Shown here piece after piece: positions 20,784 through 38,905 of a stretch of 39,019 nt of DNA. The notes beneath the pieces were generated by a model. That model had not been told where the DNA came from. It did no database searches and saw nothing but the letters and a program-made list of their open reading frames with translations. A program made the translations under genes and the position numbers. The stretch covers positions 1 through 39,019 of IMG/VR virus record IMGVR_UViG_3300046000_009272; one strand, given 5' to 3'. Source of the DNA: a virus. Position 1 is the stretch's first letter; every line of letters begins with the position of its first letter.

Positions 20784-21140
20784 CTACCACCTTGCCCTGT
20801 GCTGGCCTCGCACTCGCTCGGCCTTGCTCTTTATGTCATGGCACTCCAGGCACAAGCCCTGCTCATTGCTTTCATCGTCAGCGCCACCCTCTTCGAGTGG
20901 CACGATGTGATCGCGTTGTGTGGCCAGCGTGACGCGTCCAAGGCGTTTGCATTCAGCACACAAAGGGGCGCGAGTAAACAACGATGCACGCATCGCTTGC
21001 AGCCTCCTACCCGTCACACGCTTGGTTGCGTTGGCAGACTTGGCCCATACCTGTTGGGGATGCTTGGGGCAACGGCTAGTGCCGTCTCGTACCAGGACAC
21101 CACAACCAGGGTGATTGCAGGGCTTTGGGGCGGACCTCAT
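20784..21140 (-). CDS. HNH endonuclease of the packaging module
   Basis: The 118-residue protein has a CxxC-type N-terminus (CNHPGCGVLV), a basic middle and the HNH core: LCAECKRLG, DHIVPLEEGG, then EQGLCLECHDIKSK. Paired cysteines bind a structural zinc and His-Asn-His bind the catalytic metal. In HK97 and relatives such an enzyme next to terS is needed with the terminase for specific cos cutting. It is the first protein gene of the late unit, just after the tRNA. Confidence 0.9.
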   Translation of the reverse strand: MRSAPKPCNHPGCGVLVRDGTSRCPKHPQQVWAKSANATKRVTGRRLQAMRASLFTRAPLCAECKRLGRVTLATQRDHIVPLEEGGADDESNEQGLCLECHDIKSKAERVRGQHRARW

Positions 21141-26703: not shown

Positions 26704-27090
26704 TCAAGCCTCCCCCGCCACATTGAGCTGACTCAGATTGATGCCGCGGCGATCACCGTCGCCCCGTTGTCGTTGCAACCGTCGCTCAGCCAGGCGGCGC
26801 ACCCGGCCAGCGCGGAGGGCGTTCACGGGGGCGGCTTCGACTGCTATGGATTCAGTAGCTGCCTGCGCAGGACTGGCGGGGGCTTTGGCCAGTTCTGGCA
26901 TGTAAATATCGTTGAACGTTATGGAATGCCCGAGCGACTGCGCAAAGGTGATCAATCGCTTTGCGGCTTCAGGCGGAACTGTCTGGCCCCGCTCGTAGTG
27001 CCCGATGTTTCCTTGGGTACATCCCATTTCGACAGCAAGTGCTTCCTGCGTTACGCCGAGGCGTTTCCGGATGGCTTTGATAGTGTTCAT
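26704..27090 (-). CDS. Cro-like HTH repressor
   Basis: The 128-residue protein has an N-terminal Xre-type HTH: MNTIKAIRKRLGVTQEALAV, then MGCTQGNIGHYERGQTVPPE. A linker follows, and the C-terminal basic tail (RRLAERRLQRQRG) is unusual. It diverges from the CI-like gene across a 85-base operator region and leads the leftward early unit, the position of Cro. The predicted -10 (TACTAT) ends only six bases before the ATG, so its message is probably leaderless. Confidence 0.85.
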   Translation of the reverse strand: MNTIKAIRKRLGVTQEALAVEMGCTQGNIGHYERGQTVPPEAAKRLITFAQSLGHSITFNDIYMPELAKAPASPAQAATESIAVEAAPVNALRAGRVRRLAERRLQRQRGDGDRRGINLSQLNVAGEA

Positions 27091-27096
27091 ACGTGA

Positions 27097-27125
27097 ATAG
27101 TAGTTTAACTGTTTTATCTTGTAAA
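27097..27125 (-). promoter_or_regulatory. Leftward early promoter for cro
   Basis: On the minus strand TTTACA and TACTAT are spaced by 17 bases. The -10 is identical to that of the promoter at 28777-28805. The start point would fall at or within a base or two of the cro ATG. The -35 abuts the operator palindrome at 27125-27139. Confidence 0.75.
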
Positions 27126-27139
27126 GCAGTATTACTGGT
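27125..27139. promoter_or_regulatory. Operator-like palindrome between cI and cro
   Basis: AGCAGT-ATT-ACTGGT has the core CAGT-N3-ACTG. The same core with the same spacing lies at 28764-28778. Additional half sites (ACTGTTTT near 27109 and GAACAGTAA near 27150) flank it. It is the likely binding site of the CI-like or Cro-like protein. Confidence 0.65.
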
Positions 27140-27175
27140 TTTCTATTTTGAACAGTAACGCTATTGTTTGATCCA

Positions 27176-27667
27176 ATGAAAAAAATCGGGCGTCAGGCCA
27201 TTGATCCGCTAATAGTTTCCGAAGAGTCCAAGCTCCTCGCAGCTATTTGGTACAACACGCCAGCCAAGCATCGCGGCAGTCAAGCTGAGTTCGGTGAAAG
27301 GTTTGAAGTTGGAAATCAAAGCGCGGTGGGGCAATTCCTCCGAGGGGAGTCCCCCCTCAGCATGAAAGCGGCAAGGGGATTTGCCAAAGGCTTGGGTTGT
27401 CAGATCAACGCTTTCAGCAAGCGTCTTGCGGCTGAAGTGGATGATGCAAGTTCGGTAAACGGCCCCACAAGCGCTATTTCTGGTGGAGAGCAGTGGCCTT
27501 TCTTAACCGTGACACCGGAACAATACTACGGCGTCCTAGACAAGGGCCAGCGTGACATTGTCGAGGCTATGGTCCGAACTCTCGTAGGAGCACGGGAGCC
27601 TCCAATAAAACATCCAGCACCCGCGAACAATACCGCCACCAAGACCAGCGTTGCAAAGACAGCGTGA
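27176..27667 (+). CDS. CI-like repressor
   Basis: The 163-residue protein starts MKKIGRQAIDPLIVSEESKL and has an HTH region LLAAIWYNTPAKHRGSQAEF, then GERFEVGNQSAVGQFLRGES, a common form in short phage repressors. The C-terminal part (TPEQYYGVLDKGQRDIVEAM) lacks the S24 peptidase Ser/Lys residues, so it is not a LexA-like self-cleaving repressor. Induction must work otherwise, for example through an antirepressor. No Shine-Dalgarno precedes the ATG; a TTG four codons upstream is possible. Confidence 0.8.
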   Translation: MKKIGRQAIDPLIVSEESKLLAAIWYNTPAKHRGSQAEFGERFEVGNQSAVGQFLRGESPLSMKAARGFAKGLGCQINAFSKRLAAEVDDASSVNGPTSAISGGEQWPFLTVTPEQYYGVLDKGQRDIVEAMVRTLVGAREPPIKHPAPANNTATKTSVAKTA

Positions 27668-27768: not shown

Positions 27769-28395
27769 TTGAAATCTAGTCTAGAAATGGCCGGCAGCGT
27801 CAGTGCCGCCAAACACCACACCAACCGGGCGATCGAACACCTGATGGGCATCGTGACCGGGATGGTCGCCGATGGAGTACTCAACGATCTTGAGATCAAG
27901 ATGCTGAGCACCTGGCTGGCTAGTCACCCCGAGGCGACAGCAGACTTTCCCGGCTCAGTGATTGCTCGCGCAGTGGCAGATGCCATGGAAGATGGCGTCA
28001 TTGCTGAGGGCGAAAGAGCACATTTACTAAAAATGCTGACGGGCCTTGCATCGACAGACTTCAGCCTGACCGGGTCGGTTAGCCCGGAGGTTGCCAGTCT
28101 ACCCATTGAGGACTGTGTATCCATCGACTTCAATAACTCTATGGTCTGCTTTACTGGAGAGTTCTTGTACGGAACACGCGCTGCCTGCGAGCGACTGGTG
28201 CTGAAAGTAGGCGCCATGTGTGCGGACAACGTGAGCAAGAAGGTGGACATACTGGTGATTGGCACCCGTGTAGCGCCTGACTGGGCGCACACCAGCTTTG
28301 GCCGAAAGATTCAACGTGCAGTAGAGCTTCAAGAGGAAGGCCATGCTATTGAAATCATCTCCGAAAAACGGATGATGGAAGCCGTATCCGCGTGA
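27769..28395 (+). CDS. BRCT-domain protein with TerB-like N-terminus
   Basis: The 208-residue protein starts at TTG, seven bases after a strong GGGAGG; the next ATG six codons later has no such site. Residues 15-105 are helical (a tellurite-resistance TerB-like or EF-hand-like bundle: GIVTGMVADGVLNDLEIKML). Residues 125-205 are a BRCT domain of the DNA-ligase type (NSMVCFTGEFLYGTRAACER, then VSKKVDILVIG). BRCT domains bind phosphoproteins or DNA ends. A gene of this type near a repressor is found in various prophages; the role is unknown. Confidence 0.82.
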   Translation: MKSSLEMAGSVSAAKHHTNRAIEHLMGIVTGMVADGVLNDLEIKMLSTWLASHPEATADFPGSVIARAVADAMEDGVIAEGERAHLLKMLTGLASTDFSLTGSVSPEVASLPIEDCVSIDFNNSMVCFTGEFLYGTRAACERLVLKVGAMCADNVSKKVDILVIGTRVAPDWAHTSFGRKIQRAVELQEEGHAIEIISEKRMMEAVSA

Positions 28396-28411
28396 GATTA
28401 AGGGACCGTAA

Positions 28412-28702
28412 ATGACGCGGGCGTGGTCACGGTATTTTTCTATTCTCATAGTGCTCATCTGCACAATGGCCACTGGCGCAAACGCCGAATATGCTCGGAG
28501 TAAAAAAGCTCTCCGTGAGTTCGTCAACCAGCAGGCTTGCCCCTCCACTGGGTTGCACCGCCTGCCCTGCCCTGGATGGCAAATAGATCACATTGACCCA
28601 CTGAAATGCCTTGGGCTTGACGATCCAATAAACCTGCAATGGCTCACCGTGGACGATCACAAAGCAAAGACAAAACGAGAAGCCAAGTGGTGCAGGCAAT
28701 AA
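28412..28702 (+). CDS. Secreted HNH nuclease
   Basis: The 96-residue protein has a signal peptide (MTRAWSRYFSILIVLICTMA, then TGANA) and an HNH core in the mature part: ACPSTGLHRLPCPGWQIDHI, then PLKCLGLDDPINLQWLTVDD. Four cysteines and the D-H / N / D-H positions fit the compact HNH family with PCPGY.IDHI. The product should act in the periplasm. AAGGGA precedes the ATG. It sits in the lysogeny region, downstream of the BRCT gene and before an operator-bearing promoter, so it may be expressed in the lysogen. Confidence 0.8.
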   Translation: MTRAWSRYFSILIVLICTMATGANAEYARSKKALREFVNQQACPSTGLHRLPCPGWQIDHIDPLKCLGLDDPINLQWLTVDDHKAKTKREAKWCRQ

Positions 28703-28761: not shown

Positions 28762-28778
28762 AAAACAGTTTTACTGTT
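28762..28778. promoter_or_regulatory. Operator-like palindrome at the right promoter
   Basis: AACAGT-TTT-ACTGTT is a perfect inverted repeat, overlapping the -35 of the promoter at 28777. It has the same CAGT-N3-ACTG core as the cI-cro site at 27125-27139, so the same repressor likely binds both. Confidence 0.72.
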
Positions 28779-28805
28779 GACATAAATAAGCAGCAAAACT
28801 ACTAT
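28777..28805 (+). promoter_or_regulatory. Rightward sigma70 promoter of the DGR operon
   Basis: TTGACA and TACTAT are spaced exactly 17 bases: a near-consensus strong promoter. The palindrome 28762-28778 covers the upstream edge of the -35, so binding there would block it. The sequence AAACTACTATTCAC is shared with the cro promoter. All genes from 28847 to the integrase lie downstream with few gaps. Confidence 0.85.
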
Positions 28806-28846
28806 TCACCCCATCCCGCCACCTCACGGCGGATTTGGAGTGAATC

Positions 28847-30623: not shown

Positions 30624-30844
30624 AGATGAAACGCTACACCCCAAGCGGTACATCCACCGCGGGCTCCATGTGCATAGGCCCCGCCACCACCAAAGGCGCC
30701 TACAGCACGACCAAGCACAGCCCATCCACCGCCACGCGCCCAGGCGCCAACGATGCGCTGGCACTGCCCACACGCATAGGCGACCAGCTGCACCACCGCA
30801 ATGGCCGCATCACTTCTTTCTCAACCCCAAAGGCACGTAAATGA
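30620..30844 (+). CDS. Small basic hypothetical upstream of the DGR
   Basis: The 74-residue, Thr/Ser/Arg/Lys-rich protein (MKMKRYTPSGTSTAGSMCIG...) has low hydrophobic content and may be largely disordered. It is coupled by ATGA at both ends, which supports translation. An ATG two codons later is an alternative start. Function unknown. Confidence 0.55.
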   Translation: MKMKRYTPSGTSTAGSMCIGPATTKGAYSTTKHSPSTATRPGANDALALPTRIGDQLHHRNGRITSFSTPKARK

Positions 30845-31233
30845 CCAACGCACCCACCACCACACTCACCCTATCCAGCCTGCCCAACCTGGGCGCCCCA
30901 CTGGATGGAGGCACCTTTGCAGGGATCACCACTAAAAGCGACGGCACCCACTGCGCCGTGGTTCTGCTGCCCGAGCAAGGTGAAAAGCTCACCTGGAAGA
31001 AGGCCATGAACTGGGCCGCCAAACAAGGTGGAGAACTGCCAAGCCGCCCTGTTGCCGCCCTGCTTTTTGCTAATGCCAAAAGCCAGCTCAAACCCAAATG
31101 GCACTGGACCAGCGAGGAGGAGGACGCTTCCTACGCTTGGCATTGCTACTTCAGCTTCGGCATCCAGAGCACCATCCTCAAGAGCGACGAAGGTAGTGCT
31201 GTTGCCGTCCGCCTGATTCACCTCACCAATTAA
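30841..31233 (+). CDS. DGR target protein 1, C-type-lectin-like
   Basis: The 130-residue protein ends in a variable repeat. Its core pattern (LTWKKAMNWAAKQGGELPSR, then LLFANAKSQLKPKWHWTSEE and C-terminal EGSAVAVR) is the CLec / DUF1566-like ligand-binding fold used by DGR targets. The variable residues (His, Tyr, Ser, Phe, Ile, Ser, Thr, Ile at template Asn sites) lie at about 101-116. There is no signal peptide, membrane segment or tail-fibre domain. It is homologous to the next gene, so the two arose by duplication. The start overlaps the previous stop as ATGA. Function and ligand are unknown. Confidence 0.88.
   Translation: MTNAPTTTLTLSSLPNLGAPLDGGTFAGITTKSDGTHCAVVLLPEQGEKLTWKKAMNWAAKQGGELPSRPVAALLFANAKSQLKPKWHWTSEEEDASYAWHCYFSFGIQSTILKSDEGSAVAVRLIHLTN
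31124..31212 (+). repeat. VR1: variable repeat of target 1
   Basis: This 89-base block matches the template at 32291-32379 except at 11 positions. Ten of the changes are at template adenines. The other is T to G at 31186 (template 32353). The last 26 bases (GAAGGTAGTGCTG...) are identical to the template and form the IMH-like anchor. Confidence 0.93.
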
Positions 31234-31264
31234 TCCTTCAGTCCTTTTTTTTCAGGAGCCAACC
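31213..31264 (+). other. Shared 3' flank of the variable repeats
   Basis: Just after each variable repeat's gene end lies the motif TTAATYCTTCAGTCCTTT (31229-31247 and again at 31720-31738). It continues here into an eight-T run and then into a strong AGGAG ribosome site for target 2. The copy after VR2 can fold a small CAGT-loop-ACTG hairpin. It may help target recognition or be a relic of gene duplication. Confidence 0.55.
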
Positions 31265-31723
31265 ATGCCACCCATCACCCTTGAAGCCATTGAAGCCAAA
31301 CAGACCGAGCTGAGTCAGCTTATTACCAAATTCAAAGCACAGCCGCAAACCACAATAAACACATTCCCCGCGGTCGACATCGAACTATTCCCCGGAGAAC
31401 ACTATGCCGGCCCCGTGCTGGACGAATCCGGCAAGGTCACCCACCACCTGGTGCTGATGGCCCAGCAGCCAGACGGCAAGCTGAATTGGCAGGCGGCTAT
31501 GGACTGGGCCGAAGAAGTGGGCGGAACCCTCCCCACTCGGCAAGAGCAAGCCCTGCTGTTTGCCAACTGCAAACCCCACCTGCAACCCGCATGGCACTGG
31601 TCCAGCGAGACGCATGCGGATGACGCTTCCTTCGCTTGGCATTGCGACTTCGACCTCGGCAGCCAGGACGACGACCTCAAGAGCTACGAAGGTAGTGCTG
31701 TTGCCGTCCGCAGATTCCTTTAA
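31265..31723 (+). CDS. DGR target protein 2, C-type-lectin-like
   Basis: The 152-residue paralogue of target 1 has an extra N-terminal helix (MPPITLEAIEAKQTELSQLI, then TKFKAQ) before the shared lectin-like core (LNWQAAMDWAEEVGGTLPTR, then LLFANCKPHLQPAWHWSSET). Variable residues (His, Asp, Asp, Leu, Ser, Asp, Asp, Asp) make an acidic surface, unlike target 1. An AGGAG stands seven bases before the ATG. No secretion or tail-fibre sequence is visible. Confidence 0.88.
   Translation: MPPITLEAIEAKQTELSQLITKFKAQPQTTINTFPAVDIELFPGEHYAGPVLDESGKVTHHLVLMAQQPDGKLNWQAAMDWAEEVGGTLPTRQEQALLFANCKPHLQPAWHWSSETHADDASFAWHCDFDLGSQDDDLKSYEGSAVAVRRFL
31623..31715 (+). repeat. VR2: variable repeat of target 2
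   Basis: This block matches the template at 32291-32383 except at 11 positions, and all 11 are template adenines. Identity at the 3' end continues four bases further than in VR1 (through AGAT). The changes A to C at template base 18, A to T at 34 and A to T at 55 are shared with VR1. Confidence 0.95.
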
Positions 31724-31754
31724 TTCTTCAGTCCTTTAACTGAGCCCCGCCACC

Positions 31755-32117
31755 ATGGCACTGCACACCGAACTCCCGATCTACCGCACCGGCGTGCGCC
31801 TGCTTGACCTTGCAGTCAGCGCCCAGGTGCAAATGCCGCGCACCGTCAAACGTGCGCTGGGCGACAAGATCACCCAGCACTGCGTTGAAATGCTGGACCT
31901 GATGGCCCTGGCCAACGCCACACAGCGCGATGTCCGCGCAGGACATATTGACCAGCTGCTCACCCGCCAGCGGGCCATCACGGTCTTGCTGCGGGTCAGC
32001 CACGATGCACGGTACATCTCGCCCAAGCTGTGGGCGGATTCCATCGAGCTACTGGGCAGTGTCGGCAAGCAGGCTGGTGGTTGGCTCAAAACAGCGAACA
32101 GGGCGCCTGCTGTATGA
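31755..32117 (+). CDS. avd: Avd: DGR accessory variability protein
   Basis: The 120-residue, all-helical protein (LPIYRTGVRLLDLAVSAQVQ, then MPRTVKRALGDKITQHCVEM and LLTRQRAITVLLRVSHDARY) matches the four-helix-bundle Avd family, which forms a pentamer that binds the reverse transcriptase and template RNA and is needed for mutagenic cDNA synthesis. It lies between target genes and the template repeat, the usual place. Its stop overlaps an ATG in the RT frame (ATGA). Confidence 0.88.
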   Translation: MALHTELPIYRTGVRLLDLAVSAQVQMPRTVKRALGDKITQHCVEMLDLMALANATQRDVRAGHIDQLLTRQRAITVLLRVSHDARYISPKLWADSIELLGSVGKQAGGWLKTANRAPAV

Positions 32118-33472
32118 CGGTCAAGGCCCTCATACCCGTGCGCATAGTGAATCTGGTCACGCCGCTGCCCCATAAGGGCACCGACATGCACACCACGGAG
32201 ACCGCTGCCACCGCGCAGGCCTGGTCCGGTGCAGCTGCCCGTCTGATCGGCTCTAGCCTTCGGACAGGCAGCCTACATAGCGCGATTGGTACGCTTCCTA
32301 CGCTTGGAATTGCAACTTCAACAACGGCAACCAGAACAACAACCACAAGAGCTACGAAGGTAGTGCTGTTGCCGTCCGCAGATCCACACCTGTTCCAGCG
32401 ACTGGTGCAAGCCTACCTCGATTGCCGACGCACCAAGCGCAACAGCGCCAGTGCACTGGCCTTCGAGGCCCAGGCTGAGCACAACCTCTACCAACTCTAC
32501 GAGGAACTGGCCTCGGGCACCTACCAGCCAGGGCACTCTGTCTGCTTTGTCATCACCCACCCCAAGCCACGCGAGGTGTGGGCGGCACGCTTTCGGGACC
32601 GCATCGTGCACCACTTGCTTTACAACCACATTGCGCCGCGTTTTCATGCCCGCTTTGTGGCCGACAGCTGTGCGTGCATCCCCGGCCGGGGCACGCTCTA
32701 CGCAGCCAAGCGGCTGGAGCACCAGGTGCGCAGTCATACGCAGAACTGGAGCTGCCCCGCCCACTACCTCAAGTGCGATCTGGCCAACTTCTTTGTCTCC
32801 ATCGACAAAACAGTGCTGCTGGCACAGCTGCAGCGCCAGGTGACAGAGCCGTGGTGGATGGCGCTGGCCAGTGTCATCCTGATGCACGACCCACGCCAGT
32901 CGGTCGAGGTGCGCGGCACCCGCGCCGAGCTGGCCTTGGTGCCACCACACAAGAGCCTGTTCAACGCACCCGATGGCTACGGCCTGCCCATCGGCAACCT
33001 GAGCAGCCAGTTCTTCGCCAACGTGCTGCTGGATGACCTGGACCAGTTTGCCAAGCACCGCCTGCAGGCACCTCACTACGTGCGCTACGTGGATGACTTC
33101 ATACTGCTGCACGACAGCACCCAATGGCTCACCCAGGCACGCCTGCATATCGAAGCCAAGTTGGGAGAACTGCACCTGCAGCTGAACCCACGCAAGACCG
33201 TGATGCAGCCCATCGCACGCGGCATCGATTTCGTTGGCCACCTGGTCAAACCATGGCGGCGCATCACCCGCCGCAAGACCGTGCATATGGCGCTGGATCG
33301 CCTGCAGGACATGCCCGCAGCCGACCTGCACCAGTCTGCCAATAGCTATTTCGGCCTGCTCCGCCAAGCCACCCACAGCCACCACGACCGCACCCGCGTT
33401 GCCAAGCTGATGCTTCAACGTGGGCATGTAGTTCAGGGCGACATGACCAAGATTTACCGCAAAAAAGGATAA
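32114..33472 (+). CDS. DGR reverse transcriptase
   Basis: The polymerase copies the template RNA into cDNA, misreading adenines. The conserved part starts with FQRLVQAYLDCRRTKRNSAS near 32390. It includes FVITHPKPREVWAARFRDRI (motif 0/1), LKCDLANFFVSID (motif A), GLPIGNLSSQFFANV (DGR-type motif with GxPIGNxxSQ) and YVDD at 33086-33097. The start is uncertain: the frame is open from an ATG at 32114 coupled to avd, but this would translate through the template repeat. A GTG at 32363 or TTG at 32369, at the end of the template, would give the usual RT length. Confidence 0.93.
   Translation: MTVKALIPVRIVNLVTPLPHKGTDMHTTETAATAQAWSGAAARLIGSSLRTGSLHSAIGTLPTLGIATSTTATRTTTTRATKVVLLPSADPHLFQRLVQAYLDCRRTKRNSASALAFEAQAEHNLYQLYEELASGTYQPGHSVCFVITHPKPREVWAARFRDRIVHHLLYNHIAPRFHARFVADSCACIPGRGTLYAAKRLEHQVRSHTQNWSCPAHYLKCDLANFFVSIDKTVLLAQLQRQVTEPWWMALASVILMHDPRQSVEVRGTRAELALVPPHKSLFNAPDGYGLPIGNLSSQFFANVLLDDLDQFAKHRLQAPHYVRYVDDFILLHDSTQWLTQARLHIEAKLGELHLQLNPRKTVMQPIARGIDFVGHLVKPWRRITRRKTVHMALDRLQDMPAADLHQSANSYFGLLRQATHSHHDRTRVAKLMLQRGHVVQGDMTKIYRKKG
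32291..32383 (+). repeat. TR: DGR template repeat
   Basis: This 93-base block sits between avd and the conserved RT part. In the target frame it encodes eight Asn codons (AAT/AAC) that become other residues in both targets. AAY codons can yield 15 residues by adenine change without making a stop. The 3' end (from GAAGGTAGTG) is constant in all three copies, as expected for the template end of the mutagenesis homing site. It should be transcribed as part of a template RNA that includes the avd end. Confidence 0.95.
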
Positions 33473-33477
33473 ACACC

Positions 33478-35532
33478 ATGACCGACGAATTCGCATCCAT
33501 CGAGCTGGCCCTGATCGCGTCCAGCCTAACCAACCCACGCAAGAGCTTTGACCAGGTGAAGCTGCAGGAGCTGGCCGACAGCATCCGCTCCAGTGGTGTG
33601 CACCAGCCCATCCTGGTGCGCCCTCTGCCCGGTAGCCGCTTGCAAGACACGTTTGACATCCATGCCGCAGGTGGCCACCTTAAGGTGCGCCCCACCTATG
33701 AGCTGGTGTGTGGCGAACGCCGATTCCGCGCTTCTGCGCTGGCCGAAGTGGCTACCATCCCCGCACTGATCCGCGTGCTGACCGACGATGAAGTGCTGGA
33801 GATCCAGATCGTTGAAAACCTGCAACGCGACGACTTGAGCGAGCTGGAGGAAGCCGAAGGCTACGACACACTGATGCAGCACAACGGCCTGAACGCGGAT
33901 GCCGTAGGCCTCAAGATCGGCAAAAGCCGTAGCCACGTGTATGCCCGCCTCAAACTGCTCGACCTGTCCATGGAGTGCAAGCAGGCCATGCGCGAGGGCA
34001 AGATCGACGCCAGCCGCGCCCTGTTGATTGCCCGCATCCCCGACAGCAAGCTGCAGATCAAGGCGCTGGAGTACGCCACCGAACCCGGCTACCAAGACGA
34101 CATGCCCAGCGTGCGCGAGTTGCAGCGGTGGTTGCGCCAAAACGTGATGCTGGTGCTGGATCGGGCGACCTTCAAGATTACCGACGCCCGCCTGGTAGAG
34201 GCCGCTGGCAGTTGCACCGCGTGCCCCAAGCGCACCGGCGCGAACCCCGATCTGTTTGTCGAGGTGGACAGCGATGACATTTGCACCGACCCCGCATGCT
34301 TTCACGACAAGGAAGCCGCCCACCGCGCCGAGCTGGTGAAGCGGGCCGAGTCCAAAGGCATGCGCATGGTGGAGGGCCAAGAGGCCAAGGAAATGTGCAA
34401 CCCATGGGAATCGGTGCCCCCCGGCTACAGCACGCTGGGCCAGGTGCGCAAAGACCTGGCTGCGGAAGGCCAAGAGCCTGACACCTTGCGCCACCTGTTG
34501 GGCAAAGACGCCCCCAACGCCATCCTATTTGAGCACCCGCGCACCAAGGAACTGATGGAGCTGGTGCCCACCGAAGAGGCCGAGGCAGTGCTGCTTGCCA
34601 AGGGCTTACTGAAGGTAGAAAACAGCGCCGCCATACGCAATGCGGAAGGCCTGCAGGACGAACTCGCAAACCTGCAAAAGAAGGTGGAGCAAGCCACCAT
34701 CAAGGCCATTCACAAGGCCACATTTGACGCGACCGTGGACGCGATCCGCTGCACATCGGACAAGGATGCGCCGGCGCTCTTTGGCGCAGCCTTCTTGCGT
34801 GCCTGGCTGGCTTCGCAGATTGACTGCGGCGTTGATGAGGAATATCTGGCCAGGGCTTTGGGCTACACCTTTCACGACGGCGAAGACGAAGTGGACGGCC
34901 TGACCATGCACATCCAGGCGTGCAGCAGCGCCAACCTGTACCGCGCCACGGCCATCCTCATGGCACAGGAGGATATGCACGTACCGTATGGCGACAACGT
35001 GCCCACGATCCTCAATGCGCTGGTCAAGCAACTGGCCATCGACACCAAAGCCGTGTCCAAGGATGCAAAGGACACCGTAAAAGCCGAATACGCCGAAAAA
35101 ATCAAGGTGGCCAAGGCCGAAATCGAAGCGCAGAAACTTGTTTTACCTACGACCCCGCTGGCGCAGCCTGACCTTGAGGCCGGGAAGGGTCCAAAGGCAG
35201 AAGCCAAGACAACCCGAGGCCCGCTGCGCAAGCCAAAGCTGAGCGCCGAGGATGCCAAATCAGGCATCGCTGCCGCGATGCAGGGCATGGAGCAGCCCGC
35301 GACTGCGCGGGCTGAGGCCCAGCAAGGCGAACTGGGGATCGGCTTTTGCGTTGGCCAGAAGGTGCGCGTAACCGATGACGTGGACAAACTGGCGCTGAAC
35401 AAGATCAAGTACAAGGGCAAGGAAGGCGCCATCACCGAGAAGCAAGGCGACTCGGCGTGGTGGGTCAGCTTCAAGGGCCGCACGGGCGGTCTGGCTTGCT
35501 TTGATGTGTCTGAGCTGGCGGTGGCAGCATGA
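33478..35532 (+). CDS. Long ParB-like nuclease/partition-type protein
   Basis: The 684-residue protein has a ParB N-terminal domain (TNPRKSFDQVKLQELADSIR at 18-37, CGERRFRAS at 78-86), an HTH (ADAVGLKIGKSRSHVYARLK at 140-159) and a likely zinc site with Cys246, Cys249, Cys269 and Cys274. The last 60 residues form a KOW-like beta domain (KVRVTDDVDKLALNKIKYKG, then GAITEKQGD). Long ParB-like proteins without ParA are common in phages, where they may regulate replication or act as nucleases. It starts six bases after the RT stop. Confidence 0.85.
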   Translation: MTDEFASIELALIASSLTNPRKSFDQVKLQELADSIRSSGVHQPILVRPLPGSRLQDTFDIHAAGGHLKVRPTYELVCGERRFRASALAEVATIPALIRVLTDDEVLEIQIVENLQRDDLSELEEAEGYDTLMQHNGLNADAVGLKIGKSRSHVYARLKLLDLSMECKQAMREGKIDASRALLIARIPDSKLQIKALEYATEPGYQDDMPSVRELQRWLRQNVMLVLDRATFKITDARLVEAAGSCTACPKRTGANPDLFVEVDSDDICTDPACFHDKEAAHRAELVKRAESKGMRMVEGQEAKEMCNPWESVPPGYSTLGQVRKDLAAEGQEPDTLRHLLGKDAPNAILFEHPRTKELMELVPTEEAEAVLLAKGLLKVENSAAIRNAEGLQDELANLQKKVEQATIKAIHKATFDATVDAIRCTSDKDAPALFGAAFLRAWLASQIDCGVDEEYLARALGYTFHDGEDEVDGLTMHIQACSSANLYRATAILMAQEDMHVPYGDNVPTILNALVKQLAIDTKAVSKDAKDTVKAEYAEKIKVAKAEIEAQKLVLPTTPLAQPDLEAGKGPKAEAKTTRGPLRKPKLSAEDAKSGIAAAMQGMEQPATARAEAQQGELGIGFCVGQKVRVTDDVDKLALNKIKYKGKEGAITEKQGDSAWWVSFKGRTGGLACFDVSELAVAA

Positions 35533-37452: not shown

Positions 37453-37853
37453 ACATACTCAAACGCGGCCTCACCCACCAGGAAGCCATGGAATACGTGG
37501 GCGTGAAGCGCCGCACTTTTGACGAAGTGTGGCGGCCGCAGCTGGTGGCCATGCGTCAGGGTGCCTGCGTGATCTTTGACCGGTTGGACATTGACCGCCT
37601 GTTCGACCGCTTCAAACAAGAGGCTTCTGACCAGCCGAGTGCGGCCAACGATTCGACAAGCCAGCCGATCACGGCGCACAATGGCGGCCGGAACGAACGG
37701 CCCATCAAACCAAAAGGAGTAAATGTATGGGCCAAAACACACGGGGAATCTACCCCGAAGACAACGGGCTCTGGCAGGTTGATAAGTGGAAACGGGGCAC
37801 TCGATTTCGCCAGCGCGGCTTCGAGAGCTTTGACGAAGCGGAACGCTGGCTGA
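37449..37853 (+). CDS. AlpA/excisionase-like DNA-binding protein
   Basis: The 134-residue protein starts MNILKRGLTHQEAMEYVGVK, then RRTFDEVWRPQLVAMRQGAC and FDRLDIDRLFDRF, the winged HTH_17 / AlpA pattern of phage excisionases. Residues after 60 are Ser/Asn-rich and probably disordered. The last 127 bases overlap the integrase gene in another frame, so the tail may be shaped by that overlap. It likely directs excision with the integrase. Confidence 0.78.
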   Translation: MNILKRGLTHQEAMEYVGVKRRTFDEVWRPQLVAMRQGACVIFDRLDIDRLFDRFKQEASDQPSAANDSTSQPITAHNGGRNERPIKPKGVNVWAKTHGESTPKTTGSGRLISGNGALDFASAASRALTKRNAG

Positions 37854-38905
37854 TCACTCAGCTCGCGGGCCAGCGGGAGGTGCTGGTGCATGGCCAACGT
37901 GTCACGTACACGTTTAACCAGGCAGCAGCCCACTACATCAGCCTCAATGAGCAAAAGGCCTCTCTGGAAACCGAGATCTTCATGCTGCAAAGTGTTATGC
38001 CTTACATCGGAACGCTCGACCTGCACCAGGTGCACGATGGTTCGCTCGCGCCCTTCCAGACCGCAAGGTTGGCGGAAGGCCGCGCACACAAGACCATCAA
38101 CCTGGCGCTTGGCGTAGTGCGCCGAATTCTCAACCTGGCGGCCACAAGCTGGCGGGATGGGAGCGGTAAAACATGGCTGGAGCAGGCACCGAAGATCACA
38201 CTGCTCCCCCTGGTTGGGCACCAGCGCGAACCGCGCCCGATCACCTGGGGGGAACAGCGCACCCTGTTGCCCAAACTGCCAGACCACCTGGCACGCATGT
38301 CGCTGTTCACTTTGAACACTGGCGTGCGTGATGACGTGGTCTGCAGCCTGAAATGGGAATGGGAGATCAAGGTGCCCGAGTTGGGCATATCGGTATTCGA
38401 GGTGCCACGGGAGCACGTCAAAGGGCGCAAAAAATCGCGGGTGGTGATCTGCAATAGTGTGGCGCAGTCGGTCGTGGAAGCCGTGCGTGGCCAGCATAAG
38501 GACTACGTCTTTGTGTACCGCCGCGAACGGGTGAAAAACACCGACCAAGCGCCCAAGATGCCCTATCGACCTGTCGGGACCATGAACAACACTGCCTGGC
38601 AGACCGCACGCAAGGCCGCTGGCCTGGGCGATCTGCACGTGCACGACCTGCGCCACACCATTGGCATGCGTCTGCGCGAGGCGGGTGTGGCCGAGAGCAC
38701 GATATCCGACATCCTGTGGCACAGCACCAAGACCATGACCCAGCATTACAGCGTGGCTCAGATCGTGGAGCTGCACCAGGCACTGGAGAAGGTCAAGGAC
38801 GATGCAGGCCGGTGGAATAAGAGTCTGGCAACGCTCAAACGTGAGCAGGCGGGGGATTTCGGGGAGGCCACTCCCCCAAAAGTCCCCCAGGTGAAAGTGG
38901 CGTAG
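37727..38905 (+). CDS. int: Tyrosine-family integrase
   Basis: The 392-residue recombinase has the catalytic set Arg201 (NTGVRDDVV), Lys233 region (HVKGRKKS), His306 and Arg309 (HDLRH), His332 (WHST) and Tyr341 (QHYS). The N-terminal arm-binding part (GIYPEDNGLWQVDKWKRGTR) and the core-binding domain (about 60-150) are complete. AAAAGGAG stands eight bases before the ATG. The last codons lie inside the 99-base att repeat, and the tRNA-Arg target begins 44 bases after the stop. Confidence 0.94.
   Translation: MGQNTRGIYPEDNGLWQVDKWKRGTRFRQRGFESFDEAERWLITQLAGQREVLVHGQRVTYTFNQAAAHYISLNEQKASLETEIFMLQSVMPYIGTLDLHQVHDGSLAPFQTARLAEGRAHKTINLALGVVRRILNLAATSWRDGSGKTWLEQAPKITLLPLVGHQREPRPITWGEQRTLLPKLPDHLARMSLFTLNTGVRDDVVCSLKWEWEIKVPELGISVFEVPREHVKGRKKSRVVICNSVAQSVVEAVRGQHKDYVFVYRRERVKNTDQAPKMPYRPVGTMNNTAWQTARKAAGLGDLHVHDLRHTIGMRLREAGVAESTISDILWHSTKTMTQHYSVAQIVELHQALEKVKDDAGRWNKSLATLKREQAGDFGEATPPKVPQVKVA

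Follow-up and report, generated by a model that had tools for sequence, protein, structure and literature searches.

What does a small HNH protein, apparently exported, do in the immunity region of a phage? Such a gene lies behind a repressor gene and a BRCT-domain gene in the stretch of viral DNA analysed here (39,019 nucleotides, IMG/VR record IMGVR_UViG_3300046000_009272, hereafter the window), and a sequence-only reading had proposed that its product degrades incoming phage DNA as a means of superinfection exclusion. In the present study, it was judged quite likely that the lysogen makes the protein and that it is an exported nuclease. The narrower reading, a periplasmic superinfection-exclusion nuclease of the lysogenic operon, is held tentatively, at somewhat below an even chance.

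The gene and its export signal

The open reading frame had been delimited exactly and is a real gene under purifying selection (Table 1). In the comparison with the nearest homolog (L003), 33 of the 42 changed codons were synonymous and nine were nonsynonymous, and 36 of the 51 base differences fell on third positions; this codon pattern indicates that the frame is not due to chance. The gene starts 16 nt past the stop of the BRCT gene.

The N-terminus, MTRAWSRYFSILIVLICTMATGANA followed by E, displays a basic n-region, a hydrophobic core and an ANA cleavage-type motif when read by eye. A heuristic combining hydropathy, charge and cleavage, which gave the homologs and the other genes equal freedom of start codon, flagged the window protein and 118 of 146 homologs; the rate among the remaining genes of these loci was 258 of 1838. 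The A-X-A motif, the heuristic and the AF2 fold thus bear out the proposal of a signal peptide ahead of a compact HNH domain.

Table 1. Features of the immunity region and the integrase gene (positions in the window)
Feature	Position	Strand	Basis and remarks
Divergent small HTH protein, Cro-like position, leftward	26704–27090	−	Pfam, PHROGs
Inverted repeat, 33 nt, 76%	27093–27125 (left arm); 28777–28809 (right arm)	+ (left arm); − (right arm)	
Leftward promoter-like site TTTACA-17-TACTAT, λ PR analogue	27097–27125	−	Sequence
Three operator-like dyads AACAGT-N3-ACTGTT, 2 mismatches each	27099–27165		Starts 27099, 27125, 27151; 26-bp spacing
HTH repressor, homologous to the N-terminal domain of CI-like repressors	27176–27667	+	Alternative TTG start 27164; S24 peptidase domain absent
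BRCT-domain protein, K139 orf2 homolog, phrog_3989	27769–28395	+	Pfam, PHROGs
Shine-Dalgarno-like AAGGGA	28400–28405	+	Sequence
Exported HNH protein gene, 96 aa, ATG start	28412–28702	+	ORF call, Pfam, PHROGs, AF2
Predicted Sec signal peptide, residues 1–25, ANA/E	28412–28486	+	Read by eye and heuristic
Mature HNH domain	28487–28699	+	Predicted catalytic/metal residues D59, H60, N74 (H83 in the window's clade); predicted disulphides C43/C53, C66/C94
Perfect operator-like dyad AACAGTTTTACTGTT	28764–28778		Sequence
Rightward promoter-like site TTGACA-17-TACTAT, λ PL analogue	28777–28805	+	Operator-bearing
Integrase	37727–38905	+	phrog_1, 7e-32

HNH fold, catalytic residues and cysteines

The Pfam profile PF01844 scored 20.3 bits against the protein (E 6e-4), just short of the cut-off of 21.4, and matched 27 of 74 family members at E 0.01, while PHROGs HNH families matched the window protein with E from 2e-5 to 1e-4. 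The AF2 model (73 sequences) reached a pLDDT of 91.2, with strands at residues 56–60 and 75–79 and a helix at residues 80–93. The top Foldseek and VIA rows for the model were HNH chains, with Z below 8. The best PDB neighbours were the HNH domains of Cas8f (Foldseek E 0.013, prob 1.0, with no match below 0.001), to which VIA aligned 68 residues with Z 7.6 and rmsd 2.3. It follows from the model that the protein is predicted to have the beta-beta-alpha metal fold.

Residues D59, H60, G68 and N74 were invariant in 145 of 145 unique homolog domain sequences, partly by construction, because the loci had been fetched with patterns holding CPG..D(H) or N[LM]QW; loci L015, L078, L079, L129 and L140, for which a wrong frame had been chosen, were left out of the count. 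By comparison with the HNH family, D59, H60 and N74 are presumed to be catalytic. The third HNH residue depends on the clade, H83 together with T87 being found in 35 of the 145 sequences and D87 in 106. The distribution of these two states (35/1/0/109) was striking and was considered as evidence of covariation, but it corresponds to a single change on the tree; the coupling is not proven thereby, and the residues are treated as a clade marker only.

The protein might be no active DNase at all, and might instead bind DNA or another partner, cut RNA or act on neighbouring cells as an exported protein of HNH fold. The Pfam score just below the cut-off, the many substrates of HNH folds and the absence of H83 from most of the family, where D87 stands instead, agree with this possibility. 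It is opposed by the constancy of D59, H60 and N74 in the 145 unique sequences, and also by the neighbourhood and architecture: no immunity gene was recognised beside the HNH gene, and no delivery domain was found in the protein. Such a function is considered distinctly improbable, and we infer that the protein cuts DNA.

Both C43 and C53 are present in 142 homologs (145 unique sequences). C66 (or its neighbour) and C94 covary, with both present in 119 of 143 sequences, neither in 22 and C66 only in two; on the FastTree tree, C66, C94 and their joint state undergo 6, 6 and 7 changes, respectively. C94 is kept in L041 and L023, where the apparent losses are a trimming artefact. Joint gain and loss of C66 and C94 would be expected of a disulphide and is consistent with an oxidising compartment. 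C43–C53 and C66–C94 are predicted to form disulphides. An extra C-terminal domain of the YYTGPRGGCYTLT...RYVDHSFC type follows the HNH domain in L041, L042, L054, L057, L062 and L064, and the relative in L023 has a KWTDENGKVHFGERP-type stretch.

The immunity region of the window

The genes of the repressor, the BRCT protein and the HNH protein form a co-directional set in this order, the HNH gene being the last, and an outward promoter-like site lies on either side of it. All three neighbours that had been claimed for the gene, the repressor, the BRCT protein and the downstream operator-bearing promoter, were found where expected (Table 1). The two control regions hold four dyad sites, as compared with a shuffle mean of 0.025. 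In phage λ, rexA and rexB lie between the repressor and the second operator/promoter. By analogy, the region appears to follow the λ immunity plan, the HNH gene taking the position of rex. As this position is like that of λ rex and K139 glo, the gene is expected to be on in the lysogen. Predicted expression in the lysogen, export and nuclease activity are each considered well supported.

The integrase gene indicates that the phage is temperate. The HTH part of the repressor is 56% identical to that of a full CI/S24-type repressor, the S24-type domain of which was recognised by eye and by the repressor profile. The window repressor is devoid of the S24 peptidase-type domain of its relatives, so that induction probably does not proceed via RecA-stimulated self-cleavage.

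The BRCT protein of the phrog_3989 family recurs behind repressors in phages of Vibrio and Pseudomonas as well as in genomes of the host family, and the window protein gives a weak match to the candidate defence family PDC-S48. A search of viral contigs found no relatives of the window repressor and BRCT protein. BRCT homologs were present in 8 of 399 host-family genomes, and the HNH gene followed the BRCT gene in none of the eight loci; this indicates that the BRCT and HNH proteins are not an obligate pair.

Several other features of the window deserve mention. A probable diversity-generating retroelement occupies positions 30841–33472 (+), with the reverse transcriptase gene (32030–33472, +; phrog_1423) behind two lectin-like ORFs, the 3′ ends of which have a 94-nt repeat in common (85%; 31119–31212 and 31618–31711); positions 31755–32117 may encode the accessory protein of the retroelement. 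In the prophage locus L167, a similar target-like ORF lies directly behind the BRCT gene. A protein of 684 aa (33478–35532, +) in the rightward early region combines ParB N-terminal and HTH domains and is long for ParB. A second, ordinary HNH gene (20784–21140, −) adjoins the terminase genes; the terminase-linked zinc-knuckle HNH nuclease is a separate gene of the window, and this identity was rejected for the exported protein.

Recurrence of the placement

The relatives of the HNH protein included one viral protein (78%) and one from a phage record (34%), from which 78 viral loci were obtained. Of 165 relatives in bacterial genomes, 80 loci were retained, many from Burkholderiales, Methylococcales and Acidobacteria; the viral and genomic loci together make up a set of 158 homologous loci. 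Among the 11 closest viral loci that are distinct (L003, L005–L010, L013–L016), PHROGs profiles revealed a CI-like repressor in 8, at most two genes upstream and on the same strand.

A search of all 158 loci with a repressor profile detected a repressor in 50, and in 43 of these the best one was located upstream, on the same strand and within 1.2 kb (30 of 32 viral loci and 13 of 18 genomic loci). With genes drawn at random from these loci, 7.4 of 50 would be expected, and the maximum in 200,000 simulations was 19. The profile was seeded from seven of the counted loci (36 of 43 without them), and the search was blind to position. Clustered at 40% identity, the repressors of the 43 loci form 30 groups, and the HNH proteins form 31 at 70%; the placement recurs in unrelated phages. 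On the HNH tree, built without L077 and L080, the placement trait underwent 26 changes, the shuffled minimum being 30; these changes indicate that the association of repressor and HNH gene has repeatedly arisen or been lost.

Homing genes of the HNH type are frequent in phages, and the gene might be a selfish element of this type that landed behind the repressor by chance. This candidate was rejected on account of the export signal and the placement after a repressor in 43 of 50 loci spread across many clusters; a homing enzyme has to work inside the cytoplasm, and its presence here, already unlikely, is a very slim chance.

Inverted promoter/operator copies flank the stretch from the repressor to the HNH gene in the window, L003, L006, L028 and the near-identical loci L036 and L072, and their sequence differs in each. 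When 42 loci and the window were tested, downstream inverted operator copies were clear in five distinct loci, including the window, and L013 gave p of about 0.01 (43 tested). No inverted operator copy was found within 350 nt downstream in the remaining tested loci, which may reflect another layout. Many loci have, between the repressor and HNH genes, a gene for a small and variable protein of the lipoprotein, exported or membrane type, which suggests that the slot serves envelope functions.

A repressor was not detected in the fetched flanks of 108 of the 158 loci, and this counts against a pure lysogeny story. The relative in phage ctDrO704 is encoded between the portal and major capsid genes, in the late region, where nothing in the surroundings points to a lysogenic operon. 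An unannotated exported HNH homolog (L162, 4938–5312) was seen on the 7-kb Polaromonas plasmid pW9NP1. No single context emerged for the loci without a close repressor, where late activators accounted for 6 and anti-repressors for 4 of 112 proteins (non-redundant among 170 listed), and Pfam tallies of neighbours gave at most 3 of 102 per family (115 listed). In L082, which belongs to Rhodoferax sp. TH121, a 64% homolog follows a CI-like repressor at a distance of about 0.75 kb. Of 150 genomes from the host family of this locus, 11 carry the HNH gene, and such a sparse distribution fits mobile or accessory cargo.

It might also be supposed that the protein is an enzyme of lysogenic conversion, digesting extracellular or periplasmic DNA for the benefit of the host, either for scavenging of nucleotides and phosphate or for dispersal of biofilm eDNA. 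Secreted nucleases with such roles are described for other bacteria, and 67 of the 80 genome loci have no close upstream repressor. Against this, the conserved location beside the repressor, as opposed to other moron sites, points to protection of the phage, and no nutrient genes were seen between the repressor and the HNH gene. A benefit of this kind is considered improbable.

Proposed function and the target of the nuclease

Superinfection exclusion by the HNH protein is plausible by analogy, and the following course of events can be suggested. In the lysogen, the repressor promoter would drive the repressor, the BRCT protein and the HNH protein together. The HNH precursor would be exported via Sec and would fold in the periplasm with formation of disulphides. 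Folding that depends on disulphides in the periplasm would spare the host DNA, and the cytoplasm would be safe without an immunity protein. The periplasmic nuclease would then cut incoming phage DNA as it crosses the envelope, which would make it a nuclease form of superinfection exclusion in the place of Glo.

The main rival explanation retains the exported nuclease and its lysogenic expression and assigns it another target, naked transforming DNA, which it would cut in the periplasm; the prophage would thereby be protected from removal by recombination (chromosomal curing) and from competition by the transforming DNA. Mechanistically, a block of transformation fits as well as phage exclusion. 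Transforming DNA is naked in the periplasm. The DNA of P22-type phages, unlike it, crosses the periplasm in a protein conduit (PMC10883804), and such a conduit would shield phage DNA, which counts against phage DNA as the target. The precedent of prophage DNases in Campylobacter (PMC3995785), the discussion of chromosomal-curing conflicts in the literature and the presence of a homolog on a plasmid also favour this rival. ComEC was found in 10 of 10 host genomes tested, but 10 of 14 controls, E. coli among them, have this nearly universal protein as well, and it was discarded as an uninformative sign of competence. On the other side, the annotation of K139 links Glo, whose gene has the equivalent position, to phage exclusion, and one homolog lies among phage late genes, where a lysogenic operon is not apparent. 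A block of transformation is rated rather unlikely. Phage DNA is ranked first among the candidate targets, if narrowly, because of the immunity-operon slot and Glo.

A generalisation of the exclusion reading can be formulated, though it must be called doubtful: prophages of Burkholderiales and other groups would post a disulphide-locked periplasmic HNH protein from the repressor operon, usually beside a variable envelope protein, and foreign DNA would be cut before it reaches the cytoplasm, this being a widespread unnamed class of exclusion.

Comparison with known systems

The window BRCT protein is 34.6% identical to orf2 of Vibrio phage K139 over 86%. In the K139 record, cI-orf2-glo-int is marked as a lysogenic operon, and glo bears the note 'periplasmic protein; involved in phage exclusion'; the source paper is that of Nesper et al. 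(1999). As in the window, a repressor, a BRCT protein and a small exported protein are encoded on one strand under a lysogenic promoter, whereas in K139 the integrase gene is directly behind glo and the phage is classed in Peduoviridae. Homology of the HNH protein to Glo was ruled out, as BLASTP gave no alignment between them at E up to 100 and the HNH motif is absent from Glo. The parallel with K139 is thus one of place and not of protein. Lysogens of the K139-family phage 919TP are reported still to adsorb the phage, the block coming later (PMC4870250).

In comparison with λ, exclusion-type cargo is likewise located between the repressor and a second operator/promoter, and the twin promoters face outward. 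Unlike the products of rexA and rexB, the cargo of the window is a predicted exported nuclease, and the window repressor is without the peptidase domain.

Prophage-borne DNases of Campylobacter belong to another nuclease family, the non-specific DNA/RNA nucleases of the PF01223-like type; a Pfam scan of the HNH protein at E 0.1 gave HNH alone and no PF01223-like profile. The enzymes CJE0256 Dns, CJE1441 and CJE0566, encoded by prophages or elements, are periplasmic or extracellular and abolish natural transformation (PMC3995785). They resemble the window candidate as prophage-encoded periplasmic or extracellular DNases with a barrier role, and they differ in that the block demonstrated is that of transformation.

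The predicted beta-beta-alpha metal core is the same as in the HNH nucleases Cas8f-HNH, McrA, GVE2 HNH and colicin DNases. Unlike these, the window protein stands alone, is predicted to be exported, has its cysteines elsewhere and is devoid of the CxxC zinc pairs of classical HNH proteins. A search with PADLOC profiles assigned it to no known anti-phage defence family at E 0.1. An exported phage HNH protein with a role in exclusion was not found in the literature searched, which covered few subscription papers, and the terms nuclease, HNH and K139 were absent from the main text of a recent review on superinfection exclusion (PMC11436027).

The HNH fold, the rex/glo slot and periplasmic DNases of prophages are each known singly; what appears to be new is that they occur together, and do so repeatedly in immunity regions that are unrelated. 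The placement rule offers a search handle, as small exported genes in the slot of λ rex and K139 glo can be taken as candidate exclusion genes. If the proposal is true, prophage immunity would also be tied to the control of transformation. Known exclusion proteins target receptors, membranes and conduits, and a periplasmic nuclease made from the repressor operon would, if true, be a different guard.
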